Part shown: positions 972 to 38,293 of the stretch, in pieces
Numbering within the stretch: position 1 is the stretch's first letter
How the letters are laid out: each line of letters starts with the position of its first letter
NCBI GenBank assembly: GCA_020846855.1
Contig: JADLDD010000053.1
Location: 1 to 58,385 of the forward strand
Direction of reading: 5' to 3'
Source of the DNA: Acidimicrobiia bacterium
GTDB taxonomy: Bacteria > Actinomycetota > Acidimicrobiia > IMCC26256 > JADLDD01
Length of the DNA stretch: 58,385 nucleotides
Notes under the pieces: model-generated
Database searches by the model: none
The model's input: only the letters and a program-made list of their open reading frames with translations
What the model was told of the DNA's origin: nothing
Translations under genes and position numbers: made by a program

Positions 972-2231
972 TCACTCCGGGCCGCCGCTCGGCACCACGA
1001 GGCGCGCCCAGTGGCGCCGGCCCATCTGGAGGATCCGGCCCTCGAGGCCCGCCACCTCGGCCTCGGCGTCGGGATCGTCGAGCTTCACGCCGTCGAGGCG
1101 CACGCCCCCCTGCTCGATCTTCCGGCGGCCCTCCTTGTTCGAGGGCACGGCGCCCGGGAAGGCCAGGTGCACGAGGCGGGCCCAGCGGATGCGACCTCCG
1201 GCCACCTCCGAGGCGGGGACGTCGAACGTCTCGACCTCGGACGGAACCTCGTGCGACCGGAAGACGCGGTCGAACCCGGCCTCGGCCTCGGCGCCGGCTC
1301 CCTCACCGTGGTAGAGGTCCACGACGGTGCGGGCGAGCAGGCGCTTGGTCTCGACCGCCGAGCGGCGGCCCGACATCAGATCGGCTTCCACCTCCTCGAC
1401 CCGGTCGGGGTGCCAAGCGGTGGTCAGGGCGAGGTACCGCGGCATCAGCGCGTCGGGGATCCGCATCAGCTTGCCGAACTGCTCGGCGGGCGCCTCGGCG
1501 ATGCCGATGTAGTTGCCGAGCGACTTCGACATCTTCTGGACGCCGTCGGTGCCCTCGAGGAGCGGGGTGGTCAACACGACCTGGGGGTCCTGGCCCTCCT
1601 GCGCCTGGAGCTCGCGGCCGACGAGGTTGTTGAAGAGCTGGTCGGTGCCCCCGAGCTCCACGTCGGCCTCGACCACCACGGAGTCCCAGCCCTGCAGCAA
1701 CGGGTACAGCAGCTCGGTGACGGAGATGGGACGCCCCTCCCGGTAGCGGTTCGCGAAGTCGTTGCGCTCGAGCATCTGGGCCACGGTGGCGCGGGCCGTG
1801 AGGCGCAGGACGTCGGCGATGCCCATCTCCCCGAGCCACTCCGAGTTCCGGCGCACCTCGAGCCGGTCGGGGCGCAGGATCCGCGCGACCTGCTCGACGT
1901 AGGTGGCGGCGTGCGCGTCCACCTGCTCGGCGGAGAGCGGCGGGCGGGTGGCGGACCGTCCCGACGGGTCGCCGACGCGGGCCGTGAAGTCGCCGAGGAT
2001 CAGCACCGCGACGTGGCCGGCGTCCTGGAACCGGCGCAGGGTCCGCAGGACCACGGCGAAGCCGAGGTGGATGTCGGAGGCGGTGGGGTCGATGCCGAGC
2101 TTGACCCGCAGGGGCCGCCCGAGGGAGAGCTTGCGCCGCAGGTCGGCGGGGGTGATCACGTCGACGGCCGACGCGGTGAGCACCCACATCAAGTCGTCGA
2201 GCTCCGCCCCGGCACCGTCGGGAGACGTCAT
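972..2231 (-). CDS. tyrS: Tyrosine--tRNA ligase
   Basis: Class I aminoacyl-tRNA synthetase of 419 residues that charges tRNA-Tyr with tyrosine in the cytoplasm. The HIGH-like motif HLGF is at residues 55-58. A canonical KMSKS is at about 233-237, as in the TyrZ-like subgroup rather than the KFGKT form of E. coli TyrS. Residues about 345-410 look like the C-terminal S4 RNA-binding domain. Length is normal for the family. The ATG at 2231 is preceded by TAAGTT and 7 bases with no Shine-Dalgarno, which fits a leaderless start. It is the last protein gene before the rRNA operon on the same strand, separated by the rRNA promoter. Its own promoter separates it from the upstream DUF2249 gene. Confidence 0.97.
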   Translation of the reverse strand: MTSPDGAGAELDDLMWVLTASAVDVITPADLRRKLSLGRPLRVKLGIDPTASDIHLGFAVVLRTLRRFQDAGHVAVLILGDFTARVGDPSGRSATRPPLSAEQVDAHAATYVEQVARILRPDRLEVRRNSEWLGEMGIADVLRLTARATVAQMLERNDFANRYREGRPISVTELLYPLLQGWDSVVVEADVELGGTDQLFNNLVGRELQAQEGQDPQVVLTTPLLEGTDGVQKMSKSLGNYIGIAEAPAEQFGKLMRIPDALMPRYLALTTAWHPDRVEEVEADLMSGRRSAVETKRLLARTVVDLYHGEGAGAEAEAGFDRVFRSHEVPSEVETFDVPASEVAGGRIRWARLVHLAFPGAVPSNKEGRRKIEQGGVRLDGVKLDDPDAEAEVAGLEGRILQMGRRHWARLVVPSGGPE

Positions 2232-2238
2232 GCGGCGA

Positions 2239-2244
2239 AACTTA
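2239..2244 (-). promoter_or_regulatory. tyrS -10 box (leaderless)
   Basis: TAAGTT on the minus strand lies 7 bases before the tyrS ATG. A transcript starting at or within a base or two of the ATG is expected. No good -35 hexamer is seen. Confidence 0.5.
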
Positions 2245-2295
2245 CCAACCGGCTCCGGGCGACCCTCCCCGCCGCCCGGCGCCGCGGAGCCGCGA

Positions 2296-2778
2296 TCAGG
2301 GCTTCCCGATGCGGACCTTCCAGACCTCGGGCCCGGACTCCAGGTAGTCCCACGTGAACTTGTCGGGGTACTCGGCCGCGAACTGGTAGTAGAGCGGCTT
2401 CGGGTCGTGGTCGTTGACCAGCACGAAGCCCTCGCCGGCGCCCAGGTCGCCGTAGCGGCCCAGGATCAGGTCGTGGCGGCGCATCGGGACCTCGTTGCGC
2501 ACGTCGAGTTCGGGATCGGCCATGGGATCGGTCCTTTCGTCGTCGGAGGGACCGGGCTCCTCGGGGAGCCCGGCGAGGTAGTGCATGACGCCGTTGATGC
2601 GCTGGGCCCCCCGCTCGTCGGAGTCGCGCAGCGCCCACCACGCCTCGCCGGCGAGTCGGCTGGCGGCGACGGGTCGGCCCGCCTCGCCCAGCTCGCGCAG
2701 CGCCCGGGCCAGGATGACCACGACGTCACGCTTCTGGGACCCGTGCTCCGGGGGGTCGCTCGTGGAGCGATGCATCAC
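2296..2778 (-). CDS. DUF2249 domain protein
   Basis: A 160-residue protein read from GTG 2778. Its C-terminal half (about residues 90-158) contains the DUF2249 signature VNDHDPKPLYYQF followed by an acidic-aromatic strand-rich end. This domain is found alone or fused to hemerythrin-like domains and is often linked to redox or nitrogen-oxide handling, but its biochemical role is not established. The N-terminal half is helical and unassigned. The start codon follows TAGGAT by 6 bases, a leaderless arrangement, so it is probably transcribed separately from mpg, whose stop lies 39 bases upstream. An internal ATG downstream could be an alternative start, but the upstream helices look coding. Confidence 0.85.
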   Translation of the reverse strand: MMHRSTSDPPEHGSQKRDVVVILARALRELGEAGRPVAASRLAGEAWWALRDSDERGAQRINGVMHYLAGLPEEPGPSDDERTDPMADPELDVRNEVPMRRHDLILGRYGDLGAGEGFVLVNDHDPKPLYYQFAAEYPDKFTWDYLESGPEVWKVRIGKP

Positions 2779-2784
2779 CGGCGG

Positions 2785-2790
2785 ATCCTA
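2785..2790 (-). promoter_or_regulatory. -10 box of the DUF2249 gene (leaderless)
   Basis: TAGGAT on the minus strand is 6 bases before the GTG at 2778, consistent with transcription starting at the start codon. Confidence 0.5.
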
Positions 2791-2817
2791 GACGCATTTT
2801 CCCTACGGCCACCAGAT

Positions 2818-3474
2818 TTATTCGTCACCCTCGTGGCTCGTCGGCGGCCGGTGCCCGGGAGCCCGGCGGCTGACGTTCGGGTCGTCCCGCACGTACCACC
2901 GCCACGGGCTCCGGTCGCCCCGGCCCGGCCGCAGACCCACCCGGGTCGTGACCACCGGGTCCGCCGGTGGCGCCACGCCGTCGTCGAGCAGCCTCACCTC
3001 GCCCCGGACCAGGTCGGCGCCGTCGAAGGCGCCGTCGAGACCCAGCGCCTCGGTCAGGCGGGCCGGGCCCGCGCACAGGAACCGGTCGACCCGGGCCCGC
3101 GGTCGTCGCGCCCGCATCGTCTCGATGCCCAGGACGGGCGCACCCGCGCGGAGCAGCACCGCGGAGGCGTCGCCCCGCTTCGCGGAGCGGGCCACCACGT
3201 TGGCGCACCAGTGCATGCCGTAGGTGAAGTACACGTAGAGGCGACCAGGCGGGCCGAACATGGTGGCGTTGCGAGGGGTGGGGCCCCGGAAGGCGTGGCT
3301 GCCGGGGTCCTCGGAGCCGCAGTAGGCCTCGACCTCCACGATCCGGGCCGCGACCGGCCCGGCGACCGGGTCGTGGTGCACCAGGACCTTGCCGAGCAGG
3401 ACGGGGGCGAGATCGCGGGAGTCGCGGGCGTAGAACGATCGGGGGAGCGTTCGGCCCCTCAGTCCGCGAACCAC
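2818..3474 (-). CDS. 3-methyladenine DNA glycosylase (AAG/Mpg family)
   Basis: A 218-residue monofunctional base-excision glycosylase that removes alkylated or deaminated purines from DNA. Visible family motifs are VEVEAY (about 46-51, with the catalytic Glu), GSHAFRGPTPRNATMFG (about 58-74) and YVYFTYGMHWC (80-90). Length matches bacterial Mpg. GTG 3474 is the first start in this frame after the frame becomes family-like; it overlaps the argH 3' end by 16 bp, so it is the last gene of the arginine operon and is probably translationally coupled to argH. Its presence there is not obviously related to arginine synthesis. The stop is TAA. Confidence 0.92.
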   Translation of the reverse strand: MVRGLRGRTLPRSFYARDSRDLAPVLLGKVLVHHDPVAGPVAARIVEVEAYCGSEDPGSHAFRGPTPRNATMFGPPGRLYVYFTYGMHWCANVVARSAKRGDASAVLLRAGAPVLGIETMRARRPRARVDRFLCAGPARLTEALGLDGAFDGADLVRGEVRLLDDGVAPPADPVVTTRVGLRPGRGDRSPWRWYVRDDPNVSRRAPGHRPPTSHEGDE

Positions 3475-4910
3475 GCGCTCTGGACCTCGAGCCGATCGGC
3501 CGCGGCCCGGAGCTGGCGGGACACGGGATCCGGCCCCGCACCACCGGGGGTGGACCGCATCCTCACCGACTGGCCCGCCTCCAGCAGGGCCAGGGCGTCG
3601 TCGCCGAGGCGTGGCTCGGTCGTCACCAGCTCGGCCAGGGGCACCCGGCGCTCGATCGACTGGCGTACCAGCGAGCCCACGAGTGCGTGGGCCTCCCTGA
3701 ACGGCAGGCCGCCTCGGACCAGGTACTCGGCCAGGTCGGTCGCGGCCGCGGCCGAGCCGTCGGCGGCCGCGGCCATGCGCGCCTCGTCGATCGTCGCCGT
3801 GGCGATGAGGCCGGCGAGCGCCCGGCACGAGGCGGTGCTGGTGTCGAGCGCGTCGAAGAGAGGCTCCTTGTCCTCCTGGAGGTCGCGGTTGTACGAGAGG
3901 GGCAGGCCCTTGAGCGTGGCCAGGAAGCCGGCGAGGTCGCCGATGAGGCGCCCGGCTCGGCCGCGGGCCAGCTCCGCGACGTCGGGGTTCTACTTCTGGG
4001 GGAGCATCGAGGAGCCGGTCGACCACGCGTCGTCGAGGTGCATGAACCCGAACTCGTCGGAGGTCCACAACACGATCTCCTCCCCGAGGCGCGAGAGGTG
4101 GACCTGGGTCAGCGCGGCGGCGAAGAGCGCCTCGGCCACGAAGTCGCGGTCGCTGACCGCGTCCAGGGAGTTCTGGAAGCACCGGGAGAAGCCGAGCGCC
4201 TCGGCCGTCGCGGCCGGGTCGAGCGGGAGGCTGGAGCCGGCCAGGGCGCCGGCTCCCAGCGGCGAGACGTCGGCCCGCCGGAGCAGGTCGCGCCAACGCC
4301 CGGCGTCGCGCGACAGCGCCCAGAAGTGGGCGAGGAGGTGGTGGGCCAGCAGGACGGGCTGGGCGCGCTGGAGGTGCGTGTAGCCGGGCAGGTACACGTC
4401 GCCGGCCTCGCGGGCCCGGTCGAGGAGGACGGCCTGGAGGTCGTGGATCGCGGCGCCGGCCCGGCGCCCCGCCGACCGGAGCCAGAGGCGCAGGTCGAGG
4501 GCGATCTGGTCGTTGCGACTCCGGCCCGTGTGGAGCTTGGCGCCGGCATCGCCGGCCAGGTCGGTGACCCGGCGCTCGACCGCGGTGTGGATGTCCTCGT
4601 CGGTGGGGACGAACTCGAAGGTGCCCTCCTCCAGCTCCCGCTCGACGCGATCGAGCGCGGTGCCGAGGATCGCGTGCTCCTCGGCCGTGATGATCCCCAC
4701 CGAGGCCAGCATCGCCACGTGCGCCCGCGACCCGGCGATGTCGACACCGGCCAGCCGCCGGTCGTAGGGCAGGCTGACGCTGAACTCCAGCAGCTCGGGC
4801 GCGGGACCGCCCTCGAACCGGCCGTGCCACAGCGGCCGACCTTCCGGCGGGGAACCCTCGCCGGGCGTCGTGGGGTCTCCGGGGTCGTCTCCCGTGCGCG
4901 TCGGGCTCAC
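3459..4910 (-). pseudogene. argH: Argininosuccinate lyase, frame interrupted by one TAG
   Basis: Would cleave argininosuccinate to arginine and fumarate, the last step of arginine synthesis. The frame has 483 sense-length codons, normal for the family. It starts at GTG 4910, overlapping the argG stop as GTGA. The fumarase/aspartase-superfamily signature reads SSMLPQK-stop-NPDVAEL, where relatives have KKNPD. Codon 307 is TAG (3992-3990) in place of the second lysine (AAG), a single A-to-T change. Family sequence continues downstream (ATLKGLPLSYNRDLQEDKEP and so on) to the TGA at 3459. As written, a 306-residue protein lacking the C-terminal third would result and would be inactive. No frameshift or other lesion is seen. 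A sequence error, a very recent nonsense mutation or readthrough are possible. All other arg genes here look intact, which favours an error or readthrough over a dead pathway. Confidence 0.93.
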
Positions 4911-6142
4911 GAACCCTCTCCGGCCTGCGCACCGAACGGCTGCTGGCGCCGCGACCACGTCTCGGTGGAGAGCCCCCAGAGCCTCACGAACCCCTCGGCG
5001 TCCTGGTGCCGGAAGGCGTCCTCGGCCTCGTAGGTGGCCAGCGCGTAGTCGTACAGGGGAGCCTCGGCCCGGCGCCCCACGGGAGCGCAGCGCCCGGGCT
5101 CGAGGCGGAGCCGGACCTCACCGGTCACGTGGCGTTGCGTCGATTCGACGAAGGCGTCGAGCGCCTCGCGCAGCGGCGAGAACCAGAGGCCGTCGTAGAC
5201 CAGCTCGGCGTAGCGGCCCTCGAGACGGGCCTTCTCGCGCATCACGTCGCGCTCCACGGTGATCGCCTCGAGGTCCTGGTGGGCCACGATCAGGGCCAGC
5301 GAGCCCGGGCACTCGTACGTCTCCCGACTCTTGATGCCGACGCGGCGGTTCTCGACCATGTCGATCCGGCCGAAGCCGTACTCCCCCGCCGCGGCCCCGA
5401 CGGCGGCGACCAGCTCGGCCGGGCCCATCGCCCGCCCGTCGAGCGCCACGGGCGTGCCCCGCTCGAAGGCGACGACGATCTCGCGCCGCTCGGTCGGGGC
5501 GTCGGCCACGTCACGGGTCAGCTCGTATACGTCGTCGGGCGGTGCCACCCAGGGATCCTCCATCGCGCCGCACTCGATGGCCCGGCCCACGAGGTTCTCG
5601 TCGATCGAGTAGGGCTTCTCGCGGGTGACGGTGATGGGGATGTCGTGGCGGGCCGCGTAGTCGATGCAGTCGTCGCGGGTGAGACCCCACACCCGCACCG
5701 GCGCCAGGACGTCGAGGTCGGGGGCCAGCGTGCGGACCCCGACCTCGAAGCGGACCTGGTCGTTGCCCTTGCCCGTGCAGCCGTGGGCGACGGCGTCGGC
5801 GCCGTGACGCCGCGCCGCGAGGACGAGGTGGCGGGCGATCACGGGGCGCGACAGCGCCGAGACCAGTGGGTACTTCCCCTCGTAGAGGGCGTTGGCCCGC
5901 AGCGCCGGACCGAAGTAGCCGGCCGCGAGCTCGTCGCGGGCGTCGACGACCTCGGCCTCGACGGCCCCGGCGGCCAGCGCCCGCTGCCGGATGCGCTCCC
6001 AGTCGCCGCCGTCGGCCGACGGTGCCTGGCCGACGTCGACGGCGAGGGCCACCACCTCGGCCCCCCACTCCTCGCGGATCCAGCGCACCGCCACGGAGGT
6101 GTCGAGGCCCCCCGAGTACGCCAGCACGACCTTCTTCGCCAT
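4907..6142 (-). CDS. argG: Argininosuccinate synthase
   Basis: A 411-residue enzyme joining citrulline and aspartate using ATP to give argininosuccinate. The N-terminal P-loop AYSGGLDTS of the N-type ATP pyrophosphatase fold is at residues 7-15, and the rest follows the family to a normal length. Two ATGs are possible. ATG 6148 overlaps the argR stop (ATGA), but a GGAGG ends only one base before it. ATG 6142 is 7 bases after that GGAGG and gives the usual MAKKVVLAYSGG beginning, so I chose 6142. The gene is followed by argH through a GTGA overlap. Confidence 0.97.
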   Translation of the reverse strand: MAKKVVLAYSGGLDTSVAVRWIREEWGAEVVALAVDVGQAPSADGGDWERIRQRALAAGAVEAEVVDARDELAAGYFGPALRANALYEGKYPLVSALSRPVIARHLVLAARRHGADAVAHGCTGKGNDQVRFEVGVRTLAPDLDVLAPVRVWGLTRDDCIDYAARHDIPITVTREKPYSIDENLVGRAIECGAMEDPWVAPPDDVYELTRDVADAPTERREIVVAFERGTPVALDGRAMGPAELVAAVGAAAGEYGFGRIDMVENRRVGIKSRETYECPGSLALIVAHQDLEAITVERDVMREKARLEGRYAELVYDGLWFSPLREALDAFVESTQRHVTGEVRLRLEPGRCAPVGRRAEAPLYDYALATYEAEDAFRHQDAEGFVRLWGLSTETWSRRQQPFGAQAGEGS

Positions 6143-6144
6143 CC

Positions 6145-6633
6145 TCATCCCTCCAGGGTGGATCCGAGGCCCGCGAGGCCGGCCATCTTCGCCGCCACCG
6201 CCGCGCCTCCGACCTGCTCCGAGCAGACCGTCACGATCGTGTCGTCGCCCGCCACCGTCCCCAGCACGTCGGCGACCCCGGCCCGGTCGATGGCCGACGC
6301 CACCACGTGGGCCGATCCCGGCGACGTCCGCAGCACGACCAGGTTGGCGCTGTGCGCCACCTCGACCACGAACTCGCCCATCACCCGGCGGAGGTGGTCG
6401 TCGGAGCCGCCCCGGTCCTTGGCGTGCTCGGGGACGGCGTAGGCGAAGATGCCGCCCGGCAGCCTCACCTTCACGGCGCCGAGCTCCTCGAGATCACGGC
6501 TGACCGTGGCCTGGGTGGAGATCACGCCGTCGGCGGCGAGGAGCTCCACGAGCTGGGCCTGGTTGGAGATCGGCTGCTCCTCGAGCAGGCGGCTGATCCG
6601 GTGCTGGCGCTGGGGCTTGCCGAGCGCGCCCAT
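6145..6633 (-). CDS. argR: Arginine repressor
   Basis: A 162-residue DNA-binding regulator of arginine genes that uses arginine as corepressor. The N-terminal winged helix (about 10-75) contains ISTQATVSRDLEELGAVKV, typical of the ArgR recognition helix. The C-terminal hexamerisation and arginine-binding domain contains GTVAGDDTIVTVC (about 130-142). It lies inside the operon it presumably represses, 2 bases after the argF stop and directly before argG, so autoregulation through the argC promoter is likely. An ARG-box-like palindrome overlaps that promoter. Confidence 0.96.
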   Translation of the reverse strand: MGALGKPQRQHRISRLLEEQPISNQAQLVELLAADGVISTQATVSRDLEELGAVKVRLPGGIFAYAVPEHAKDRGGSDDHLRRVMGEFVVEVAHSANLVVLRTSPGSAHVVASAIDRAGVADVLGTVAGDDTIVTVCSEQVGGAAVAAKMAGLAGLGSTLEG

Positions 6634-6635
6634 GG

Positions 6636-7547
6636 TCAGGCCTCCTCCGTCACGAGCACGGCCAGCAGGGCGCGCACCGCGTGCATCCGGTTGGCGGCCT
6701 GCTGCCACACGACCGACGACGGGCCGTCGAGGACGTCGTCGGTGACCTCCTCCCCGCGGTGCGCGGGAAGGCAGTGCATGAACACCGCGCCGCCCGACGC
6801 GTCCATCAGATCGCGGTCGACCCGGTGGGTGGCGAAGGCCCGCCGGCGGGGCCCGGCTTCGTCCTCGTCGCCCATCGACACCCACACGTCGGTGTAGACG
6901 GCGTCGGCGCCCTTCACGGCCTCGTACGGGTCGCCGGTGAGCTCGACGCTCCCGCCCAGGTTCCGGGCGCGCGCCAGGACCTCGGCGTCGAGCTCGTAGC
7001 CCGTGGGCGACGACACCGTGAGCTCCAGACCGCTCAGGGCGGCGGCGAAGGCCAGGGAGGCCGCCACGTTGTTGCCGTCGCCGACGTAGGTGACCCGGCG
7101 GCCCTCGAGGCTCCCGAGCCGCTCGCGCAGGGTCAGCAGGTCGGCGAGGGCCTGGCAGGGGTGGGCCCGGTCCGAGAGCAGGTTGACCACCGGCACGGGG
7201 GCCGCACCGGCCATCCGCTCCAGCACCGCGTGGTCGAAGACCCGGGCGGCGATCACCGCGGTGAAGCAGCCGAGGGTCCGGGCGACGTCCTCGGCCGACT
7301 CCCGCCCGTCGATCCCCACCTCCTCCGCCCGGAGGGTCACCGGGTGGCCACCGAGGGTGTGCACGGCCATCTCGGTGGAGACCCGGGTCCGGGCCGACGG
7401 CTTCTCGAACAGCAGCGCCGCGCCGCGCCCCTCCAGGGCGGCGGGGACGAGAGCGGGGTCGGCCTTCCATGCCGACGCCAGGTCGAGGACCCGGGCCAGG
7501 AGCCCGGGCGAGAGGTCGTCGACCTCCAGGAACCGCGCAGGGGTCAC
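6636..7547 (-). CDS. argF: Ornithine carbamoyltransferase
   Basis: A 303-residue enzyme making citrulline from ornithine and carbamoyl phosphate. The carbamoyl-phosphate loop reads SARTR at about residues 51-55 (the family has SxRTR). HPCQ is present near 130, and the ornithine-site motif FMHCLPAHRGEEV lies near 265. GTG 7547 overlaps the argD stop as GTGA. The motif set points to the anabolic OTC rather than aspartate carbamoyltransferase. The gene ends 2 bases before argR. Confidence 0.97.
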   Translation of the reverse strand: MTPARFLEVDDLSPGLLARVLDLASAWKADPALVPAALEGRGAALLFEKPSARTRVSTEMAVHTLGGHPVTLRAEEVGIDGRESAEDVARTLGCFTAVIAARVFDHAVLERMAGAAPVPVVNLLSDRAHPCQALADLLTLRERLGSLEGRRVTYVGDGNNVAASLAFAAALSGLELTVSSPTGYELDAEVLARARNLGGSVELTGDPYEAVKGADAVYTDVWVSMGDEDEAGPRRRAFATHRVDRDLMDASGGAVFMHCLPAHRGEEVTDDVLDGPSSVVWQQAANRMHAVRALLAVLVTEEA

Positions 7548-8791
7548 AGGGGCACCTCCGATCGGGCCTCGGCGAGGACGCCCCGCAGGATCTCCACCGC
7601 CCGGTCGATCTCGTCGTCGGTCACGAGAAGGGGCGGGGCGAGACGGAGCGCGCTCGGCGTCACCGCGTTCACCACCAGGCCGGTCGCGAGCGCCGCGGTC
7701 GCGATCGCGCCGGCGTCGAGGCCGCCGGCGAGCTCGGCGGCGAGGAGCAGGCCGGCGCCCCGGACCGAGGCGACACCGGCCACGGCGTCGAGGGCCCGGG
7801 CGAGGCGGGCGCCGGCCTCGGCCGCCCGCCGGTCGACGGACTCCGAGCGCATCACCCCGAGGGTGGCCAGGGCCGCCGACGCCGCGAGCGGCTGGCCCCC
7901 GAAGGTGGACCCGTGGTCGCCGGGCGCGAACGCGGCCGCCACCTCGTCGCGGGCCCAGCACGCCCCGATCGGCATCCCGTTGCCGAGGGCCTTGGCCAGG
8001 GTGACGACGTCGGGCCTGACCTCGCCTCCGTGCTCGAACCCGAACCACCGCCCCGTGCGGCCGAGGCCGGTCTGCACCTCGTCGACGACGAGGAGCACCT
8101 CGCGCTCGTCGCAGAGGGCACGGACCGCCTCCAGGTAGCCGGGCGGAGGCGTGACCACCCCCGCCTCGCCCTGCACCGGCTCGAGCAGGACGGCGCAGAC
8201 GCGTTCGTCGATGGCCGCGGCGAGGGCCCCGAGGTCGCCGTAGGCGACGTGCCGGAACCCCGAGGGCAGCGGCGCGAACACCTCCTGCTTCTCCGGCTGG
8301 CCGGTGGCGGCGAGCGCGGCGAGGGTGCGGCCGTGGAAGGACCCGTACGCCGAAACCACGTGGTACCGGCCGGGCCCGCCGTGGGCCTGCCCGAAGCGCC
8401 GGGCGAGTTTGATCGCGCACTCGTTGGCCTCGGCCCCCGAGTTGGCGAAGAAGACCCGGCCGTGGGCTCCGGCGGCGCCACCGACGAGCGCGTCGAGCTC
8501 GGCCGCCAGCCGGGGCTGGAGCTCGTTCAGGTAGAGGTTGGAGACGTGGACGAGGGTGCGCGCCTGGTGCGCGATCGCGTCGGCGACGGCCGGGTGCGAA
8601 TGGCCGAGCGACGCCACCGCGAGACCGCCCACGAAGTCGAGGTACGCGCGTCCCTCGGTGTCGAACAGGGTCGAGCCCTCGCCGCGCACGAAGGCCACCG
8701 GCTGGCGGCGGTAGGTGCCGATCACGTAGCGCTCGTCGAGCGCCCGGAGCTCCTCCAGCGGAACCGGCGACGCCGCCGGCCGGACGGTCAC
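7544..8791 (-). CDS. argD: Acetylornithine aminotransferase
   Basis: A 415-residue class III PLP aminotransferase. It converts N-acetylglutamate semialdehyde plus glutamate to N-acetylornithine. The PLP region contains NSGAEANECAIKLAR near residue 120. The VDEVQTGLGRTG segment carries the cofactor-contacting Asp. The Schiff-base lysine is in TLAKALGNGMPIGA (about 265). Family members may also act on succinyl-diaminopimelate, but placement within the arg operon supports ArgD. GTG 8791 overlaps the argB stop as GTGA, with no upstream in-frame start that extends homology. Confidence 0.96.
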   Translation of the reverse strand: MTVRPAASPVPLEELRALDERYVIGTYRRQPVAFVRGEGSTLFDTEGRAYLDFVGGLAVASLGHSHPAVADAIAHQARTLVHVSNLYLNELQPRLAAELDALVGGAAGAHGRVFFANSGAEANECAIKLARRFGQAHGGPGRYHVVSAYGSFHGRTLAALAATGQPEKQEVFAPLPSGFRHVAYGDLGALAAAIDERVCAVLLEPVQGEAGVVTPPPGYLEAVRALCDEREVLLVVDEVQTGLGRTGRWFGFEHGGEVRPDVVTLAKALGNGMPIGACWARDEVAAAFAPGDHGSTFGGQPLAASAALATLGVMRSESVDRRAAEAGARLARALDAVAGVASVRGAGLLLAAELAGGLDAGAIATAALATGLVVNAVTPSALRLAPPLLVTDDEIDRAVEILRGVLAEARSEVPL

Positions 8792-9642
8792 GGCGTCACC
8801 ATCGTGCCCACCCCGGCCCGGGTGAAGAGCTCCAGGAGCAGCACATGAGGTACCCGGCCGTCGAGGATGTGGGCCCGGCCCACTCCGCCGCGCAGGGCCC
8901 GGACGCACGACTCGAGCTTGGGGATCATGCCGTCGGCCACGGCGCCGGCCTCGATCAGCGCCTCGAGCCCGGCGACGTCGGTGCGCGAGACGACCGACGA
9001 GGCGTCGGGGTAGTCGCGGTAGACGCCCGCTACGTCGGTGAGGTAGATCAGCTTCTCGGCCCGGAGCGACGCCGCGACCGCGGCCGCCACGACGTCGGCG
9101 TTGACGTTGTACGCCTGGCCGTGCTCGTCGACACCGACGGTCGCCAGCACCGGGATCAGGTCCTCGCGCAGCATGCGCTCCAGCAAGCCGGGCTCGACCT
9201 TCTCCACGTCGCCGACGAAGCCGAGCCGCTCGTCGGCGGGACCGACCCGGAGGAGCCGGGCGTCCTCGCCGGAGACGCCCACCGCGTACGACCCGTGCCG
9301 GTTCAGGTTGGTGACGACGTCGCGGTTGACCTTGCCCACCAGCGCCATGCGGACGATGTCGACCGTCTCGGCATCGGTGACCCGCAGACCGTCGACGAAG
9401 GCCGGTTCCTTGCCGAGGCGGCGCATCAGGTCCGAGATCTGCGGACCGCCGCCGTGCACCACCACCGGGCGCATCCCGACCAGGTGCATCAGCACGACGT
9501 CCTGGGCGAAGAGGTCGGCCAGCTCCGGCTCGACCATGGCGTGGCCGCCGTACTTCACCACGACCGTCCGGCCCCAGAACTCGCGGATGTAGGGCAGCGC
9601 CTCGGCCAGGATCTCGGCCCGGCCGGCGTCGGCGGTGCTCAC
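8788..9642 (-). CDS. argB: Acetylglutamate kinase
   Basis: A 284-residue amino-acid kinase that phosphorylates N-acetylglutamate, usually the arginine-inhibited step in cyclic pathways. VVKYGGHAM (about 30-38) and VVHGGGPQIS (about 65-74) are the nucleotide- and substrate-binding glycine loops. DGMIPKLE near residue 234 is also conserved. An N-terminal helix precedes the fold (residues about 5-22), as in arginine-sensitive hexameric NAGK, so feedback inhibition is likely but not proven. GTG 9642 overlaps the argJ stop as GTGA. Confidence 0.97.
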   Translation of the reverse strand: MSTADAGRAEILAEALPYIREFWGRTVVVKYGGHAMVEPELADLFAQDVVLMHLVGMRPVVVHGGGPQISDLMRRLGKEPAFVDGLRVTDAETVDIVRMALVGKVNRDVVTNLNRHGSYAVGVSGEDARLLRVGPADERLGFVGDVEKVEPGLLERMLREDLIPVLATVGVDEHGQAYNVNADVVAAAVAASLRAEKLIYLTDVAGVYRDYPDASSVVSRTDVAGLEALIEAGAVADGMIPKLESCVRALRGGVGRAHILDGRVPHVLLLELFTRAGVGTMVTP

Positions 9643-10835
9643 GACGTGGTCCGGTTCTCGTCGATGTAGCCGTACGAGAGGTCGGTGGTGGTGACCACCG
9701 AATCGTGGTCGCCCCGGTGGAGGTCGCAGCGGATCTCGATCTCCCGTCGCCGCATGGCCGCGGCCACCGCCGCCGCGTCGTGGGGCGCCGCCATGCCGTC
9801 GCGGCACACGACCACGCCGTTGTAGGCGATGTCGACGCCCTCGGGGTCGAGCTCGGCGCCACTGGCCCCGAGCTCGGCGAGGACCCGGCCCCAGTAGGGG
9901 TCCTCGCCGTTGAGCGAGCACTGGACGAGCTGGCTCAGGGCGACGGCCCGGGCGGCCCGGCGGGCGTCGGCCGGGCTGCGGGCGCCCCGGACGACGATCC
10001 GGGCCAGCTTGGTCGCGCCCTCGGCGTCGAGGGCCATCTGCTCGGCGAGGGAGGCGCACACCGTGCCCAGGGCGTCGACGAAGGCGTGGAACGCCGTGCC
10101 GCCGACCCCGATCGGCCGGCCCCCCGCCGCGCCTCCTGCGAGGACGATGACGGTGTCGTTGGTGCTCTGGGCGCCGTCGATGCAGAGCTGGTTGAACGAC
10201 GACTCCACCGCGACAGCCAGGGCCTCCCGCAGCGCCCCTGCCTCGACGGCGGCGTCGGTGGTCACCACGGACAGCATCGTGGCCATGGCCGGGGCGAGCA
10301 TCGCGGCTCCCTTGGCCATGCCGCCCACCGTGGCCCCCGAGCCCGCGACCGCCGCGGTCGCCTCCTTGGCGACGGTGTCGGTGGTCATGATGGCCTCGGC
10401 GGCGGCCCGGGCGCCCTCCTCCCGCCCCTCGGTGGTCAGCGCGTCGGTGAGCGCCGGGATGCCGGCCTCGAGGGGGCCCGTCGGGAGCGGCACGCCGATG
10501 AGCCCCGTGGAGCAGACCAGGACGTCGGCCGGCTCGCACCCCAGACCCGTGGCGGTCAGCTCGCACATCCGGCGCGCCGCGACGCGGCCCGGCTCGCCGG
10601 TCGCGGCGTTGGCGTTGCCCGAGCTCAGCACGACGGCGGCCGCCCGGCCGTCGTCGAGGTGACGGCGGCTCACCTGGACCGGGGCCGCGGCGACGCGGTT
10701 CGAGGTGAAGACCCCGGCCGCGCTCACGGACCGCCGGTCGGCGGTGGCGACGAGCGCCAGGTCGGGCCGGCCGTCGGGCTTGATACCGCAGGCCAGCCCG
10801 GCGGCCTGGAAGCCCTCGGCGGCGGTGACGCTCAC
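9639..10835 (-). CDS. argJ: Bifunctional ornithine acetyltransferase/glutamate N-acetyltransferase
   Basis: A 398-residue enzyme that recycles the acetyl group from acetylornithine to glutamate and can also use acetyl-CoA. The self-cleavage site is seen in DAEGATKLARI near residue 195; the Thr after Ala becomes the N-terminal nucleophile of the beta chain. Upstream motifs SSGNANAATG and VCSTGLIG are typical. Its presence explains why no argA or argE is needed in the cluster. GTG 10835 overlaps the argC stop as GTGA. Whether it is mono- or bifunctional cannot be decided from sequence alone. Confidence 0.96.
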   Translation of the reverse strand: MSVTAAEGFQAAGLACGIKPDGRPDLALVATADRRSVSAAGVFTSNRVAAAPVQVSRRHLDDGRAAAVVLSSGNANAATGEPGRVAARRMCELTATGLGCEPADVLVCSTGLIGVPLPTGPLEAGIPALTDALTTEGREEGARAAAEAIMTTDTVAKEATAAVAGSGATVGGMAKGAAMLAPAMATMLSVVTTDAAVEAGALREALAVAVESSFNQLCIDGAQSTNDTVIVLAGGAAGGRPIGVGGTAFHAFVDALGTVCASLAEQMALDAEGATKLARIVVRGARSPADARRAARAVALSQLVQCSLNGEDPYWGRVLAELGASGAELDPEGVDIAYNGVVVCRDGMAAPHDAAAVAAAMRRREIEIRCDLHRGDHDSVVTTTDLSYGYIDENRTTS

Positions 10836-11902
10836 GGCCAGAGCCCCACGGAGCCGAGGCCGGCGTCCTCGGGCAGGCCGAGCAGGAGGTTCGCGTTCTG
10901 GACGGCCTGACCCGCCGCACCCTTGCCCAGGTTGTCGAGCGCCGCGAGGGCGAGCACGCGCCCCGTGCGCTCGTCGACGCGAACGGTGACGTGGGCCACG
11001 TTGGAGCCGGAGGTGGCCTTGGTGTGGGGGGCTTCGTCGAGGACCTCGACGAAGCGGCAGCCCTCGTAGAACCGCCGGTAGTGGTCGAGGAGCGATGCGG
11101 TGGAGAGGCCGTCGACCGCGGGACGGGCGTGGCAGGTCGCGAAGATGCCGCGCACCGCCGGGACGAGGTGGGGCGTGAACAGCACCTCCGGCGGCGATAC
11201 CCCGGTCGCGGTCCGTTTCCGGGCCACCTGGGCCAGCGCGAACTCGATCTCGCCGGTGTGGCGATGGTCGAGCAGCCCGTAGGCGGTGACGTCGTCGGCG
11301 GCCTCCGAGAACAGGCTGGCGGCCGAGAGGCCCCGACCGCGCCCGGAGATGCCCGACATCGCGTCGACCGTCAGCCCCGAGCCCTCGACCATGCCGTCGG
11401 CCACCAGCGGGGCCAGGGCCAGGGCCGCCGCGGTCGGGTAGCAGCCCGGGGAGGCGACGTGCTCCGCCGCCTCGATCTCGGCCGCGAACAGCTCGGGGAT
11501 CCCGAACGCGAACGAGTCGAGGAGCTCGGGGGCCCCGTGCTCGGCTCCGTACCAGCGGGCGTAGGTGTCGGCCGGGAGGCGGAAGTCGGCGCCCAGGTCG
11601 ACAACATGGCCCACCCGCCCCAGGATCCCGGGGGCGATCCGCTGCGACTCGCCGTGCGGCAGCGCGAGGAACACCACGTCGGCCCCGGCCACCGCCTCGG
11701 GATCGAACGCGGCCAGCACCAGGTCGGGGTAGGCGGCCCCGAGAGACGGGTAGAGGCGCCCGACCGGCGCACCGGCGTTGGAGTCGGCGGTGGCGTGGAC
11801 GACGCGAAGTGCCGGGTGGCCGCTCAGGAGCCTCATCAGCTCGGCGCCGGCGTAGCCCGACGCGCCCACCACGGCGGCCGTCCTCGACCCGTTACTCGTC
11901 AC
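10832..11902 (-). CDS. argC: N-acetyl-gamma-glutamyl-phosphate reductase
   Basis: A 356-residue NADPH-dependent reductase and the first gene of the arginine operon. The Rossmann motif VVGASGYAGAELMRLL is at the N terminus (about 10-25). The catalytic cysteine lies in ASPGCYPTA near residue 150, and HTGEIEF follows in the C-terminal domain. GTG 11902 is preceded by TATGCT and 7 bases, which predicts a leaderless message beginning at the GTG. An in-frame ATG at 11914 would lie inside the -10 box and is therefore unlikely. The promoter carries an ARG-box-like palindrome. Confidence 0.96.
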   Translation of the reverse strand: MTSNGSRTAAVVGASGYAGAELMRLLSGHPALRVVHATADSNAGAPVGRLYPSLGAAYPDLVLAAFDPEAVAGADVVFLALPHGESQRIAPGILGRVGHVVDLGADFRLPADTYARWYGAEHGAPELLDSFAFGIPELFAAEIEAAEHVASPGCYPTAAALALAPLVADGMVEGSGLTVDAMSGISGRGRGLSAASLFSEAADDVTAYGLLDHRHTGEIEFALAQVARKRTATGVSPPEVLFTPHLVPAVRGIFATCHARPAVDGLSTASLLDHYRRFYEGCRFVEVLDEAPHTKATSGSNVAHVTVRVDERTGRVLALAALDNLGKGAAGQAVQNANLLLGLPEDAGLGSVGLWP

Positions 11903-11904
11903 GC

Positions 11905-11938
11905 TGCATAGCATACAGACGGGTGCATGCCGGCGCAA
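11905..11938 (-). promoter_or_regulatory. argC operon promoter with ARG-box-like operator
   Basis: The minus strand has TTGCGC (11933-11938), a 17-base spacer and TATGCT (11910-11915), 7 bases before GTG 11902. The near-palindrome TGTAT-GCT-ATGCA (11905-11917) overlaps the -10, and another TGCAT half-site lies in the spacer (11924-11928). This resembles the TGCAT...ATGCA core of ArgR boxes in high-GC Gram-positives, although the centre is 3 rather than 4 bases. ArgR binding here is an inference. Confidence 0.6.
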
Positions 11939-12082
11939 CGCCGATCGGGGCCGGCATCCGCCGAGGTACGTCGACCCGAATCCGGTTGCCCGATCCCCGG
12001 ATAGCCCTGTCCATCGCCGCCGTACGCCTGTGATGCCACGCCCACGACCCGGATCTGTCGGAGCGGGTAGCCTGAGGCTGTT

Positions 12083-12099
12083 GTAGAGACATCTTCTAC
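12083..12099. promoter_or_regulatory. Candidate operator of the TetR-family regulator
   Basis: GTAGA-N7-TCTAC is a perfect inverted repeat ending 15 bases upstream of the regulator's GTG. A wider GGGTAG (12065-12070) and CTACCC (12096-12101) pair overlaps it. Its position suits autorepression. Binding has not been shown. Confidence 0.45.
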
Positions 12100-12114
12100 C
12101 CGCAGGGGAAGGGC

Positions 12115-12936
12115 GTGTCAACCGGTAGGAGCGCGGAGCCCGAACGCAGCGCGGACGGCCCCCGGTTCCGGGGTCGCGGCTGGAGCGACGACATGCGGCG
12201 CCGGATCATCGAGGCCGGCCTCGCCGAGCTCCAGGAACGAGGCCTACGCCCCGGGGTCGGTCACATCCGCCTCACCGAGGTCACCGAACGGGCGGAGGTC
12301 AGCCTCGCCATCGCCTACCGCATCTGGGGCGGCAGCCGCACCCGCGACGGCCTCGGAGGCCAGGACCGCTTCCACCGCGACCTCGTGGCCGAGGCCTTCC
12401 GGGCACTCCTGACCGACTACCCGACCGCCGTCGCCGGCGAGGCGGCGCAGGTCCTGGCCGCCGACGCGCCCATCGAGGATCTGATCCGGGTGACCGCCGC
12501 GACCCTGTACCGGGCTCTCTCCGGCGACGGCACCAACATCGGCATCGTGCTCGGTCTGTACGGCTCGACCCTCAGCGACCCCGAGCTCAGTGCCGTCGCC
12601 GCGACGGCCCACGAGCAGGCGGTCGACGACTTCACCGGGATCGTCGGGTGGATCCTCGACCGGTACGGCCGCGAGATGGCCAACGGCCTCTCGGTCCGCG
12701 ACCTGGTGGTGGCCATCACCGCCCTGGCCGCCGGCTTCCTCATCCGACACGGGGTGGAGCCGGGGATCGCACTGCGCCCGGTTCCCGGACCGGGATCACC
12801 GTCAAGCGGAAGTGGGTGGACCCTCTTCGGCTTCTGCACCTGGGCGTTGGTCGACCGCTTCACCCGACCCGCCGCCCACTTGGTGGAGCCGGTCACCCAC
12901 GCAGCTCGGCCCCGAAGCGCCGTTCCACCTCCCTGA
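12115..12936 (+). CDS. TetR/AcrR-family transcriptional regulator
   Basis: A 273-residue protein. The N-terminal helix-turn-helix is seen around residues 25-75 (MRRRIIEAGLAELQERG, then LTEVTERAEVSLAIAYRIWG), with a 15-residue insert (GGSRTRDGLGGQ) before the last helix. The remaining helices form the variable ligand and dimer domain. The effector is unknown. GTG 12115 follows a palindrome that may be its own operator. The gene is divergent from argC (213 bp away), and its 3' end overlaps the 3' end of pheT by 44 bp. The C-terminal 35 residues are low-complexity and may not be structured. No target gene is evident besides itself; argC is under ArgR-like control. Confidence 0.8.
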   Translation: MSTGRSAEPERSADGPRFRGRGWSDDMRRRIIEAGLAELQERGLRPGVGHIRLTEVTERAEVSLAIAYRIWGGSRTRDGLGGQDRFHRDLVAEAFRALLTDYPTAVAGEAAQVLAADAPIEDLIRVTAATLYRALSGDGTNIGIVLGLYGSTLSDPELSAVAATAHEQAVDDFTGIVGWILDRYGREMANGLSVRDLVVAITALAAGFLIRHGVEPGIALRPVPGPGSPSSGSGWTLFGFCTWALVDRFTRPAAHLVEPVTHAARPRSAVPPP

Positions 12937-15331
12937 TGCACGCGGCCCGCACGTCGCCCACCTCGGCGTCGGTGAGGGTCCGGTCGGCGGCCCGCAGGCG
13001 CAGGGCGAAGGCGAGGCTCCGGCGCCCCGGCCCGAGCGCGTCGGAGCGGAACTCGTCGAAGCACCTCACGTCCTCGGCCAGGTCGCCGGCCACCTCGGTC
13101 AGGGCGCCCACGATCGCGGCCGCGGCCACGGCGTCGTCGAGCACGAAAGCCAGGTCGATCGCCGACGCCGGGAAGCGCGAGAGCGGGCGGAACGACCGGT
13201 CCCGCCGCGCCCCCGCCAGGAGCGCGTCGAGGTCGAGCTCGAAGCCCACCGCCGGTCCGGTCATCTCGAACGCCGCGAGCGTGGCGGCCGCGTACTCCCC
13301 CACGTGCCCCGCCACCGCGCCGTCGACGACGACGGCCGCGGTGCGCCCGGAGTGGAAGCCCGGGGCTCCCTCGGGTTCGAGCCGCACGTCGGCGAGGCCG
13401 AGCGCGTCGGTCACCACACGCAGGCAGTCGACGGCGTCGTAGACGTCGACGGGACGGTCGGGCTCGACCGGGGCCCGGCGGCGGGTACCGGCGACGACGA
13501 CCGCCACGTGGTCGCGCTCGTCGGGCAGCGGCTCCGTGGCCGGGGTCGGCGGGCGGAAGACGTGACCGGCCTCGAAGAGGGCGAGGTCGGGGAGACCGTG
13601 GGCGGCGTTGCGGGCCGCAGCCTGGAGCAGCCCGGGACCGACGAGCGGCCGCAGCACCGACTCCTCGGCCCGCAGGGGGTTGGCCGCCTCGACCACCCCG
13701 CCCGCATAGCCGGCGGCCCGCACCGCCTCCGACGAGACGAGCGAGATCGTGACCGCCTCCGCCAGGCCGGCCCCGACCAGGGCGTCGACGACCGTACGGC
13801 GATCGCGCTGGCGGGGCGAGAGCCCGGTACCGGACCGGGTGGCCGGGGGGAGGGTCCGGGGGATGCTGTCGAGGCCGATCCGGCGGGCCACCTCCTCGAC
13901 GATGTCGATCTCGCGCTCGAGGTCGGGCCGGAAGGTCGGGGGCCGGGCCACGAACCGGCCCGGCGGGCCCGAGGCGTCGGGCTCCACCTCGATCTCGAGC
14001 GGCGCCAGCAGCTCGGGGATCCGGTCGGCGGGGAGGTCGGTGCCGAGCAGTGCGTTCACGCGGTCGGTCCGCACCGTCACCCGGGGCCGGTCGACGGGTG
14101 CGGGGTAGGAGTCGATCGGGTCGGGCGCCACGGTCGCGCCCGCCACCTCCTGCATGAGCTGGGCGGCCCGGCCGCTCGCGTCCAGGACCCCGCCGGGATC
14201 GACGCCCCGCTCGAAGCGGGCGCTCGACTCCGAGCGCAGCCCGAGCCGCTTGGAGGTGCGGGAGATCCCCTCCGGCTCGAAGTACGCGGCCTCCAGCAGG
14301 ATCTCGGTGGTGGTGTCGCGCACCTCGGCGTCGGCTCCACCCATGATCCCGGCGATCGCCTGCGGCACGCGCTCGGCGTCGCAGACCAGCAGGTCGTCGG
14401 CCTCTAGCCGGCGCTCGACGCCGTCGAGGGTCGTGATGCGCTCGCCGGGCGCCGCCCGGCGGACCACCAGGCCCCGCCCCGCCAGGTGCGCGAGGTCGAA
14501 GGCGTGGAGCGGCTGGCCCCGCTCGAGCAGCACGTAGTTGGTCACGTCGACCACGTTGGAGATCGGTCGCATCCCGGCCAGGGCCAGGCGGCGCGCCATC
14601 CAGCGCGGCGCCGGACCGATCGAGACGTCGAGGCGCCGGGCCGTGAACCGGGGCGCCCGCTCGGGGGCCTCGACCACGACCGAGATCGTGGTGGCCGTGG
14701 GGGCGCCGGCCGGGTCGGGCCGGGCCGCGGGGACATCGAGGGGCAGACCGAAGTGGGCGGCGAGGTCACGGGCCACGCCGACCACCGACATGGCGTCGGG
14801 TCGGTTCGGGGTGATCGACAGGTCGAAGACGGTGTCGTCGAGGCCGAGGACCTCCACGACGTCGGTGCCGGGCTCGGGGTCGTCGCCGGCGCCCTCGGCC
14901 GGCGACGCCTCCCCGTGGCCGCGCAGGTCGAGGATGCCGGCGTGGTCGTCGCCGAGAGCGAGCTCCCGGGCCGAGCAGAGCATCCCGTCGGAGGTGACCC
15001 CGCGGATCCGGCGGGCCTCGAGGGTGACGCCGCCCGGGAGGCGGGCGCCCGACGGGGCGTACGGCGCCAGCATGCCGGGCACCACGTTGGGCGCGCCGCA
15101 CACGACACGGGTGGAGCCCACGCCGTAGTCGACGTCGACGAGGCGCAGCTTGTCGGCGTCGGGGTGGGGCACGACGTCGACGACCCGGGCCACGACGACC
15201 CCGCCGATCTCCCGGCCGGGCTCGTCGACGGCCTCCACCTCGAGGCCGAGATGGTCGAGCGCCCGGGCGACTTCGGCCGGCTCGGCCTCGATCGGGGTGA
15301 AGTCGCGGATCCAGCTCAGGGGTACGCGCAC
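12893..15331 (-). CDS. pheT: Phenylalanine--tRNA ligase beta subunit
   Basis: The 812-residue beta chain of the alpha2-beta2 synthetase. Domains in order are a tRNA-binding OB fold (about 40-155, with VVCGAPNV), the B3/B4 editing region (about 215-390), the B5 DNA-binding-like domain (about 410-480), a catalytic-like core and a C-terminal FDX-ACB anticodon domain (about 715-811). Length is typical. The GTG at 15331 lies 7 bases after the pheS stop with AGAGG just upstream. It ends convergently with the TetR-family gene, sharing 44 bp. Confidence 0.97.
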   Translation of the reverse strand: MRVPLSWIRDFTPIEAEPAEVARALDHLGLEVEAVDEPGREIGGVVVARVVDVVPHPDADKLRLVDVDYGVGSTRVVCGAPNVVPGMLAPYAPSGARLPGGVTLEARRIRGVTSDGMLCSARELALGDDHAGILDLRGHGEASPAEGAGDDPEPGTDVVEVLGLDDTVFDLSITPNRPDAMSVVGVARDLAAHFGLPLDVPAARPDPAGAPTATTISVVVEAPERAPRFTARRLDVSIGPAPRWMARRLALAGMRPISNVVDVTNYVLLERGQPLHAFDLAHLAGRGLVVRRAAPGERITTLDGVERRLEADDLLVCDAERVPQAIAGIMGGADAEVRDTTTEILLEAAYFEPEGISRTSKRLGLRSESSARFERGVDPGGVLDASGRAAQLMQEVAGATVAPDPIDSYPAPVDRPRVTVRTDRVNALLGTDLPADRIPELLAPLEIEVEPDASGPPGRFVARPPTFRPDLEREIDIVEEVARRIGLDSIPRTLPPATRSGTGLSPRQRDRRTVVDALVGAGLAEAVTISLVSSEAVRAAGYAGGVVEAANPLRAEESVLRPLVGPGLLQAAARNAAHGLPDLALFEAGHVFRPPTPATEPLPDERDHVAVVVAGTRRRAPVEPDRPVDVYDAVDCLRVVTDALGLADVRLEPEGAPGFHSGRTAAVVVDGAVAGHVGEYAAATLAAFEMTGPAVGFELDLDALLAGARRDRSFRPLSRFPASAIDLAFVLDDAVAAAAIVGALTEVAGDLAEDVRCFDEFRSDALGPGRRSLAFALRLRAADRTLTDAEVGDVRAACIREVERRFGAELRG

Positions 15332-15338
15332 GGGGCCT

Positions 15339-16397
15339 CTAGTACTGGGAGAGGAAGCGGATGTCGCCGTCGAAGAAGGTCTTGATGGGGTTCACGCCGT
15401 AGCGCAGCATCGGCATGCGCTCCAGGCCGAACCCGAAAGCGAACCCCGAGTACTCCTCGGGGTCGATCCCCACGGCGGCGAAGACGTTCGGGTCGACCAT
15501 CCCGCAGCCGCCCAGCTCGATCCAACCCGTCTGCGAGCAGACGCGGCACCCCGACCCCTCGCAGAACACGCAGCCGACGGCGAACTCGGCCGACGGCTCG
15601 GTGAACGGGAAGAACGACGGGAGCAGGCGGGTGGGGACCGTCGTGCGGAAGTACGCGGAGGTGAACGCCTCGATCGTGCCGGCCAGGTCGCCGAAGGTGA
15701 TCCCCCGGTCGACGGCGAGGCCCTCGATCTGGTGGAAGACCGGCGAGTGACGGGCGTCGAGGGTCTCGTTGCGGTACGTGCGGCCCGGCATCACGCAGTA
15801 GATGGGCGGGGGCTGCGACTGCATCACCCGGATCTGGACCGGGGACGTGTGGGTACGCAGCATCACCTGCTCCGGGCGGCCGAGCTTCACGTAGAGCGTG
15901 TCCTGCATGGCGCGGGCCGGGTGCCCGGGCGGGAAGTTGAGCGCCTCGAAGTTGTGCCAGTCGTCCTCGACCTCGGGGCCCTCCGCCACCGCGTACCCCA
16001 TGGCGACGAAGATGTCCTCGAGCTCGCGCTGGACCTGGGTCACCAGATGGTGGTGACCCCGGTTCAGGCCGTGCCCGCCCAGCGTCAGGTCGAGGCGTTC
16101 GGCCGCGTCCGCCTCGCCCGCCGCGGCCGCGGCCGCGGCCAGAGCGGTGGCCCGCTCCGCGAGCATCTCGCGGACGCCGGCCTCGTAGGACGACAGGGCC
16201 CGGCCGGCCACGGGGCGCTCGGAGGGGTCGAGGCCCTTGATCGCCTCCCTCACCTCGCGCGCGCCCGACCGACGCCCGAGCAGGTCCCGCTCGACGACCT
16301 CCAGCTCGGCGACGTCGGCGGCGGCCGAGATCCGGTCGCGGGACGCGCCCGTGTCGAGCCGGGCGAGCAGCGCGTCGAGCTCCGGGGAGTTGTCCAT
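15339..16397 (-). CDS. pheS: Phenylalanine--tRNA ligase alpha subunit
   Basis: The 352-residue catalytic alpha chain of PheRS. It has an N-terminal coiled-coil arm (about 5-85), then class II motifs: HPARAMQDTLYV, RTHTSPVQIR, YRNETLDARHSPVFHQIEG and a C-terminal GFGLERMPMLRYG motif 3. A cysteine cluster (CVFCEGSGCRVCSQTGW) is present, as in many bacterial PheS. ATG 16397 starts 13 bases after the upstream methyltransferase stop. A GTG at 16424 is also in frame but would overlap that gene by 14 bp. The stop is TAG. Confidence 0.96.
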   Translation of the reverse strand: MDNSPELDALLARLDTGASRDRISAAADVAELEVVERDLLGRRSGAREVREAIKGLDPSERPVAGRALSSYEAGVREMLAERATALAAAAAAAGEADAAERLDLTLGGHGLNRGHHHLVTQVQRELEDIFVAMGYAVAEGPEVEDDWHNFEALNFPPGHPARAMQDTLYVKLGRPEQVMLRTHTSPVQIRVMQSQPPPIYCVMPGRTYRNETLDARHSPVFHQIEGLAVDRGITFGDLAGTIEAFTSAYFRTTVPTRLLPSFFPFTEPSAEFAVGCVFCEGSGCRVCSQTGWIELGGCGMVDPNVFAAVGIDPEEYSGFAFGFGLERMPMLRYGVNPIKTFFDGDIRFLSQY

Positions 16398-16410
16398 GGG
16401 CCCGCGGATT

Positions 16411-17295
16411 CTAGGGGTCGCCACCGGCGGACGATCGACGATTCCCGCCGGACGCCCCGGCCCGGCGCTGCCGGGCGGCCTCGAATAGCACGATGCTCCC
16501 CGCCACCGCCGCGTTCAACGACTCCCCCGCCTCCATGGGGATGGACACCCGCTCGTCGAGGCGATCGGTCACGGCCGGACCGAGCCCGTGCGCCTCGCTC
16601 CCCACCACGAGAGCGACCGCGCCCGTCAGCGCGACGGCCTCGACGGCGCGACCGCCCGAGGGCACCGTGCCGATCGTGGTCCACCCGGCACGCCGCAGGG
16701 CGTCGAGCGTGCCCGGCGTGTCGGGGGCATCGACGATCGTCACACCGAACACCGCTCCCGCCGACGCCCTCAGGCTCTTCGGGTTCGAGGGATCGGCGGT
16801 GCCGGCACCCCTCACGACGGTGGTCACGCCGGCGGCCTCGGCGCTGCGGACCAGGGTGCCGAGGTTCCCCGGATCGGACACGCCCGCGAGCACCAGGAGC
16901 GGTCCCGGGACCGGTGAAGTGGGCGGCGGCCACGGGTCCGGCGGACCTGCGTCGGGCCCGTCGAAGAGGGCGAGGACGGGCTGCGGCGTGACCGTGGTGG
17001 CCACCCGCTCCAAGGCGCCGGTCGCGACCTCGAAGACCTCCGCGCCCTGCGCCGCCGCCCGGGCCTCCAGCGGGGCCGTGCCGGTGGCCGCCGGCCTGCC
17101 CGCCGCCACGTAGAGGGCCCGCATCCGGGCGCCACGCTCGAGAGCCCCCTCGATCAGCCGGGCGCCCTCGAGGACGACCACACCTTCGGCGCGTCGGCGG
17201 CGAGGGTCGCGCAGCAGCGCCCGGAGCCGAGTGAGCCCGGGACTACGGGCACCGAGCGGGCGGCGGCCGGCCCCGGGGGCCGGCGGCCCGCTCAC
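16411..17295 (-). CDS. SpoU/TrmH-family rRNA 2'-O-methyltransferase
   Basis: A 294-residue RNA ribose methyltransferase. The N-terminal part (about 25-100) resembles the substrate-binding L30e-like domain. The C-terminal SPOUT knot carries motif 1 ([17 protein letters not shown], about 150-166), motif 2 ([10 protein letters not shown] near 240) and motif 3 ([18 protein letters not shown] near 263). It sits between rplT and pheS as in many actinobacteria, where the gene is often called tsnR-like. GTG 17295 overlaps the rplT stop as GTGA. The exact rRNA target cannot be read from sequence. Confidence 0.92.
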
Positions 17296-17654
17296 GCCGC
17301 GTCGAGAGCCTCGCGGGCCGTGGTGACGAGCGCGCCGAAGGCCGCGGCGTCGCGGACCGCGAGGTCGGCGAGGATCTTGCGGTCGACCTCGACACCCGCG
17401 AGCCGCAGGCCGGCGATGAACCGCGAGTAGCTGATGTCGTTGACCCGGCAGGCCGCGTTGATCCGCACGATCCACAGGCGCCGGAACTGGCCCTTGCGGG
17501 CCCGGCGGTCACGGAACGCGTACTGCCGGGCGTGCATCACCGACTCGTTGGCCTTGCGGAGGTGGCGACTCCGCGCGCCGCGGTGCCCCTGCGCGGCCTC
17601 GAGTACGGCGCGGCGGTGCTTCTTGCTCTGGACGGACCTCGTGACCCGGGCCAT
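17292..17654 (-). CDS. rplT: Ribosomal protein bL20
   Basis: A 120-residue 50S subunit protein that binds 23S rRNA early in assembly. The basic N-terminal helix ([20 protein letters not shown]), the [19 protein letters not shown] segment and RINAACR are the family hallmarks. ATG 17654 has GGAG 10 bases upstream, a normal Shine-Dalgarno within an operon. It lies 59 bases after rpmI. In other phyla bL20 represses this operon by binding the infC leader or rpmI region; whether that happens here is unknown. Confidence 0.98.
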
Positions 17655-37296: not shown

Positions 37297-37380
37297 GCCC
37301 GGATGGCGGAGTCGGCAGACGCGGCGGACTCAAAATCCGCTGCCCGTGAGGGCGTGTGGGTTCGAATCCCACTCCGGGCA
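37297..37380 (+). tRNA. tRNA-Leu (anticodon CAA)
   Basis: An 84-nt class II tRNA. The acceptor stem GCCCGGA pairs with TCCGGGC (discriminator A at 37380). The anticodon loop reads CTCAAAA inside the stem GCGGA/TCCGC, giving anticodon CAA for TTG codons. A long variable arm (TGCCCGTGAGGGCGT) and the T loop TTCGAAT are present. CCA is not encoded. Confidence 0.98.
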
Positions 37381-37510
37381 CCCAGGGCCCACCGGCGTGG
37401 AGCACCAGGACACCCCCCAGGCCCAGGCCACCACACCCCGACGGCGACCCGAGGCCCCCAACCCACCCCGCAGCCATGAGAGCCATCCCACCACCGACCC
37501 GGACGAAGGC

Positions 37511-38041: not shown

Positions 38042-38050
38042 GAGCAACGG

Positions 38051-38293
38051 ATGTCACGGGAGGAGATCCTGGCCACCCTCCGGGACCTGGCCGCCGAGGT
38101 GCTGGGGGCCGACCCGTCCAGCATCACCGAGGACGCCCGCCTCGCCGAGGACCTCGACGCCGACAGCCTCGACCTGGTCGAGATGGTCATGGCGCTCGAG
38201 GACCACTACGGGATCGAGATCCCCGAGGACGACCTCGAGGGCGTCACCACCGTGGGCCAGACCATCGACGTGGTGGTCGCCCGCGTCGCCTGA
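38051..38293 (+). CDS. acpP: Acyl carrier protein
   Basis: An 80-residue carrier of growing acyl chains. The phosphopantetheine attachment serine is in DADSLDLVEMVMALED, around residue 39, with the typical acidic helix II. GGAG stands 6 bases before ATG 38051 and overlaps the stop of the membrane protein gene. The next gene is fabI, 82 bases on. Both support a role in type II fatty-acid synthesis rather than polyketide synthesis. Confidence 0.96.
   Translation: MSREEILATLRDLAAEVLGADPSSITEDARLAEDLDADSLDLVEMVMALEDHYGIEIPEDDLEGVTTVGQTIDVVVARVA

Follow-up and report, generated by a model that had tools for sequence, protein, structure and literature searches.

The question raised by this locus is whether a TAG codon that interrupts an otherwise family-like argininosuccinate lyase gene (argH) is the product of a sequence error, a fresh nonsense mutation or a codon that is read as an amino acid, the three options offered by the original prediction. 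The gene lies in the window, by which we mean the whole 58,385-nucleotide stretch of DNA that was analysed. Based on stop usage, the release factor, the missing pyl genes and the arithmetic of substitutions, we conclude that the TAG is an ordinary one-base lesion. Error and fresh mutation both remain as explanations, and decoding is not supported. The features that bear on this question are as follows.

3459..4910, minus strand: argH (argininosuccinate lyase) frame, running from a GTG start at 4910 to a TGA at 3459 and broken by a single TAG
3992-3990, minus strand: in-frame TAG, codon 307 of argH; AAG (Lys) in 104 of 114 homologues
3459..3989, minus strand: part of argH 3' of the TAG; 66-78% identity to the nearest homologues
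4907..6148, minus strand: argG, intact; overlaps the argH start
6145..12121, minus strand: argC, argJ, argB, argD, argF and argR, all open and family-typical; upstream of argG and argH
2818..3444, minus strand: DNA-3-methyladenine glycosylase gene, just after argH

The argH frame and the arginine cluster

Translation of the minus-strand frame from 4910 to 3459 gives 483 codons plus the terminal TGA, with the TAG as the sole internal stop. The surrounding sequence is DDAWSTGSSMLPQK*NPDVAEL, in which the interrupted motif reads GSSMLPQK*NPD (the asterisk marks the TAG). When read through the TAG, the product matches the ArgH profile TIGR00838 over positions 27-474 with 548.9 bits against a curated cut-off of 279.5, so that the full-length match expected of a family member is present and the frame is interrupted only at codon 307. 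This bears out the description of the frame as full length and family-like on both sides of a single TAG. It is also correct that one base separates this codon from AAG, the usual homologue codon, position 3992 having changed from A to T as read along the gene. There is no in-frame ATG, GTG or TTG for 72 codons past the TAG, and a translation restart is therefore unlikely.

Apart from the TAG, the gene is in normal condition. Its identity to the closest homologue is 76% before the TAG and 78% after it, and it departs from the family at one of the 111 columns that are conserved in at least 95% of sequences, where the 30 closest homologues depart at a mean of 0.6 columns (range 0-3). Examination of argH for signs of a pseudogene thus revealed no further lesions or relaxed constraint, and repeats within the gene are unremarkable. 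The arginine pathway around it is intact as originally described, with argC, argJ, argB, argD, argF, argR and argG all open. A second intact argH, which was proposed as the mark of a plain pseudogene, was not found in this genome, a draft of 124 contigs that is 83.29% complete and 1.58% contaminated.

The cluster belongs to a compact run of minus-strand genes at 972-16424 that comprises pheS-pheT-argC-J-B-D-F-R-G-H, the DNA-3-methyladenine glycosylase gene, a small ORF at 2228-2641 and tyrS. A long ORF at 6145-7470 within this run is not a fusion, as only its last third is ArgR and the 6622-7470 part overlies argF in another frame.

Codon 307 in homologues and in the family signature

Among 114 homologous loci, the residue at codon 307 is lysine in 110, arginine in three and X in one, where the contig ends; the corresponding codons are AAG in 104, AAA in six and CGN in three. 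None of the 114 has a stop at this codon, and the genomes compared include no relative of the same genus or family that would show an unbroken allele. Some homologues had been marked as containing a single internal stop; in those examined, this stop precedes the real start or lies at the C-terminus rather than at codon 307.

The signature of the aspartase/fumarase superfamily is GSSxMPxKxNPxxxE (PMC10602362). Codon 307 corresponds to a variable x of this signature, and the conserved K (306) and N (308) that flank it are both intact. The K of MPxK is the catalytic-loop lysine of the family. Thus, the original prediction was right that relatives carry lysine at codon 307, but the conserved lysine of the catalytic loop is its neighbor, and the hint of a pyrrolysine at a catalytic lysine is weakened accordingly. 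Since the position is the variable one, a special residue there would have no clear chemical motive.

The argH contigs of two related genomes (the right ends of G013:C38 and G052:C198) stop exactly at the CAGAAGAAGAACCC stretch, which comprises the same codons as the TAG site in the argH studied here. These contig ends probably reflect an assembly-graph branch at DNA that is common to many genera. They hint that assemblers have difficulty at this stretch, although this is a post hoc observation and no more than suggestive. Search results from two further related genomes show argH split over frames in a frameshift-like manner (G040:C1:2396005-2397408 and G057:C12:9590-10962), and these are possible errors or pseudogenes.

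TAG as a stop codon and the machinery for decoding it

Stop usage was analyzed in 387 kb of the genome, in sampled stretches, using a codon model trained on the same genome. The 217 coding frames in this sample end in TGA (178), TAG (36, with argH counted) or TAA (3). TAG is a working terminator in this genome, because it ends 35 of the 216 frames other than argH, including that of the essential gene pheS, which terminates with TAG at 15341, its usual C-terminus. The genes at 16411-17475 and 37346-38041 also end in TAG, and all three genes checked from those that had been named as TAG-ended proved to be so. Three codons past the TAG of a membrane gene comes an acyl carrier protein gene in the same frame (38039-38290), and this TAG, at 38039, overlaps a possible ribosome-binding site (TAGGAG).

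No gene other than argH has an internal in-frame stop among the 217 frames of the 387-kb sample. Coding signal continues in frame past a stop at 12 places, and 11 of these were rejected as broken genes given that they have their own start codon soon after the stop and look like neighboring genes; only argH is broken inside. A scan for frameshifts returned mostly normal gene junctions. Codon usage in the same 387 kb further predicts that 2.3% of random single substitutions create a stop and that 70% of those stops are TAG, and a chance lesion is therefore expected to appear as an isolated amber codon.

The machinery for decoding TAG was searched for as originally suggested, and none of PylS, PylC and PylD was recovered above cut-off. 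PylS and PylC have only background matches in this genome, of 24 bits (cut-off 178) and 25 bits (cut-off 248), respectively, and PylD was not found in this 83% complete genome, so that neither the synthetase nor the PylC and PylD biosynthesis expected of pyrrolysine decoding was recovered. Likewise, PylS has no match at E <= 1e-20 in a search of 100 genomes (99 of them relatives) from the same order and class, where the Methanosarcina control was positive. A tRNA with a CUA anticodon, the other component that had been proposed, is absent from the 30 tRNA loci recovered by the family search plus about 330 kb of sampled contigs of this incomplete genome, a search that is itself incomplete given that ARAGORN found a tRNA-Cys and a tRNA-Leu(CAG) that the family search had missed. 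The canonical CUA-tRNA pattern TCTA...GTTCRA has 58 matches in the whole genome as compared to 37 for the control. Of these 58, 30 were examined with ARAGORN, which identified no CUA tRNA in any of them, and in each of the remaining 28 the anticodon is followed by a C, at a position that is a purine in tRNAs. The RNA 3' of the argH TAG shows no structure in excess of that of shuffled sequence (z = -0.47).

The release factor RF1 is present, as two pieces at contig ends. Genome-wide recoding of TAG does not fit this genome, in which TAG is used as a terminator, the sample contains no other internal TAG and RF1 is present. The two prfA pieces (the end of G000:C38 and the start of G000:C118) overlap by about 30 residues and differ there (EEANLWAADLARMYQRYAEAHGW versus EEANLFARDLFEMYKAYASRQGW), and for this reason one of the two contigs may belong to another organism.

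Origin of the TAG and comparison with known systems

The closest named relatives of this genome are nearly all metagenome-assembled genomes by title, many labelled Acidimicrobiia or Acidimicrobiales, and these titles together with the draft state of the assembly suggest that it is itself a metagenome-assembled genome. A chimeric assembly was considered as a source of the TAG because of the contigs of two related genomes that end at CAGAAGAAGAACCC, and was rejected since a TAG seen in none of the homologues cannot arise from joining the alleles of two organisms. We think it probable that the TAG is a consensus error, or an unfixed or minority variant, in this metagenome-type draft, a reading favored by the lack of decay in the gene, by the open state of the whole cluster and by the genome being a draft. 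In it, a one-base A to T change at 3992 would lie within an otherwise normal, selected argH, as a base that is wrong in the consensus or as a minority variant picked up by the assembly, and the living population would probably have a lysine codon at 307 and make a full-length lyase. We infer that the base at 3992 is itself erroneous or not fixed, since an arginine cluster of eight genes would be hard to keep intact when its last enzyme alone is cut, in the active-site loop. Counting against an error, the lack of any other in-gene stop in the sample speaks against a very high error rate. The main alternative, less probable but plausible, is that a real nonsense mutation arose recently. In that case the sequenced strain would have lost ArgH and would need outside arginine, the product being an inactive 306-residue fragment that lacks the motif N and the C-terminal part. 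One base is enough for such a mutation, TAG is the likeliest type of stop by codon usage, there is no restart codon within 71 codons and the draft contains no second argH, although a second copy could lie in the missing part of a genome that is 83% complete. However, neither argH nor the other arginine genes show relaxed selection, and loss of the last step alone with all others intact requires a very young event. If the base is real, the TAG would thus mark a very young arginine auxotrophy.

Readings in which a functional lyase is made from the interrupted gene fare far worse. Decoding of the TAG by pyrrolysine or a suppressor tRNA would give full-length ArgH and is in keeping with the lysine position, the intact sequence on both sides and a tRNA search that was not exhaustive, but it is very unlikely given the lack of pyl genes here and of PylS in the relatives, the absence of a CUA anticodon among the tRNAs read or of a tRNA among the pattern matches examined, the presence of RF1, the routine use of TAG as a stop and the lack of structure beyond chance in the RNA that follows it. 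A rare, argH-specific amber decoding that restores ArgH through an unusual tRNA encoded in the 17% of the genome that the draft lacks is more improbable still. We give just as little credence to a split gene, in which the two parts of ArgH would be made as separate chains that assemble. Enzymes of the ArgH family are tetramers whose active sites are built from several chains, which would suit such an arrangement, but the second part lacks a start codon for 72 codons after the TAG and the break falls within the active-site loop.

In a draft genome, a lone TAG where relatives conserve a lysine is easily taken for a case of recoding, and the present one serves mainly as a caution. The gene resembles pyrrolysine-encoding genes in that its TAG lies in a continuing frame and at a lysine position. 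It differs from them in that pyl genes are absent above cut-off here, as is PylS from the relatives, and in that only one gene is involved in a genome where TAG is a normal stop. As compared to ArgH (TIGR00838; aspartase/fumarase superfamily), it has the full-length match, the signature GSSMLPQK.NPD and the clustering with argG, argR and argF, and differs by a single TAG where the signature is variable. Finally, in regards to the isolated nonsense codons of draft genomes, which are errors or fresh pseudogenes, the argH TAG shares the single base, the single copy and the lack of flanking decay, and does not differ from them, whether it is an error or a fresh pseudogene.
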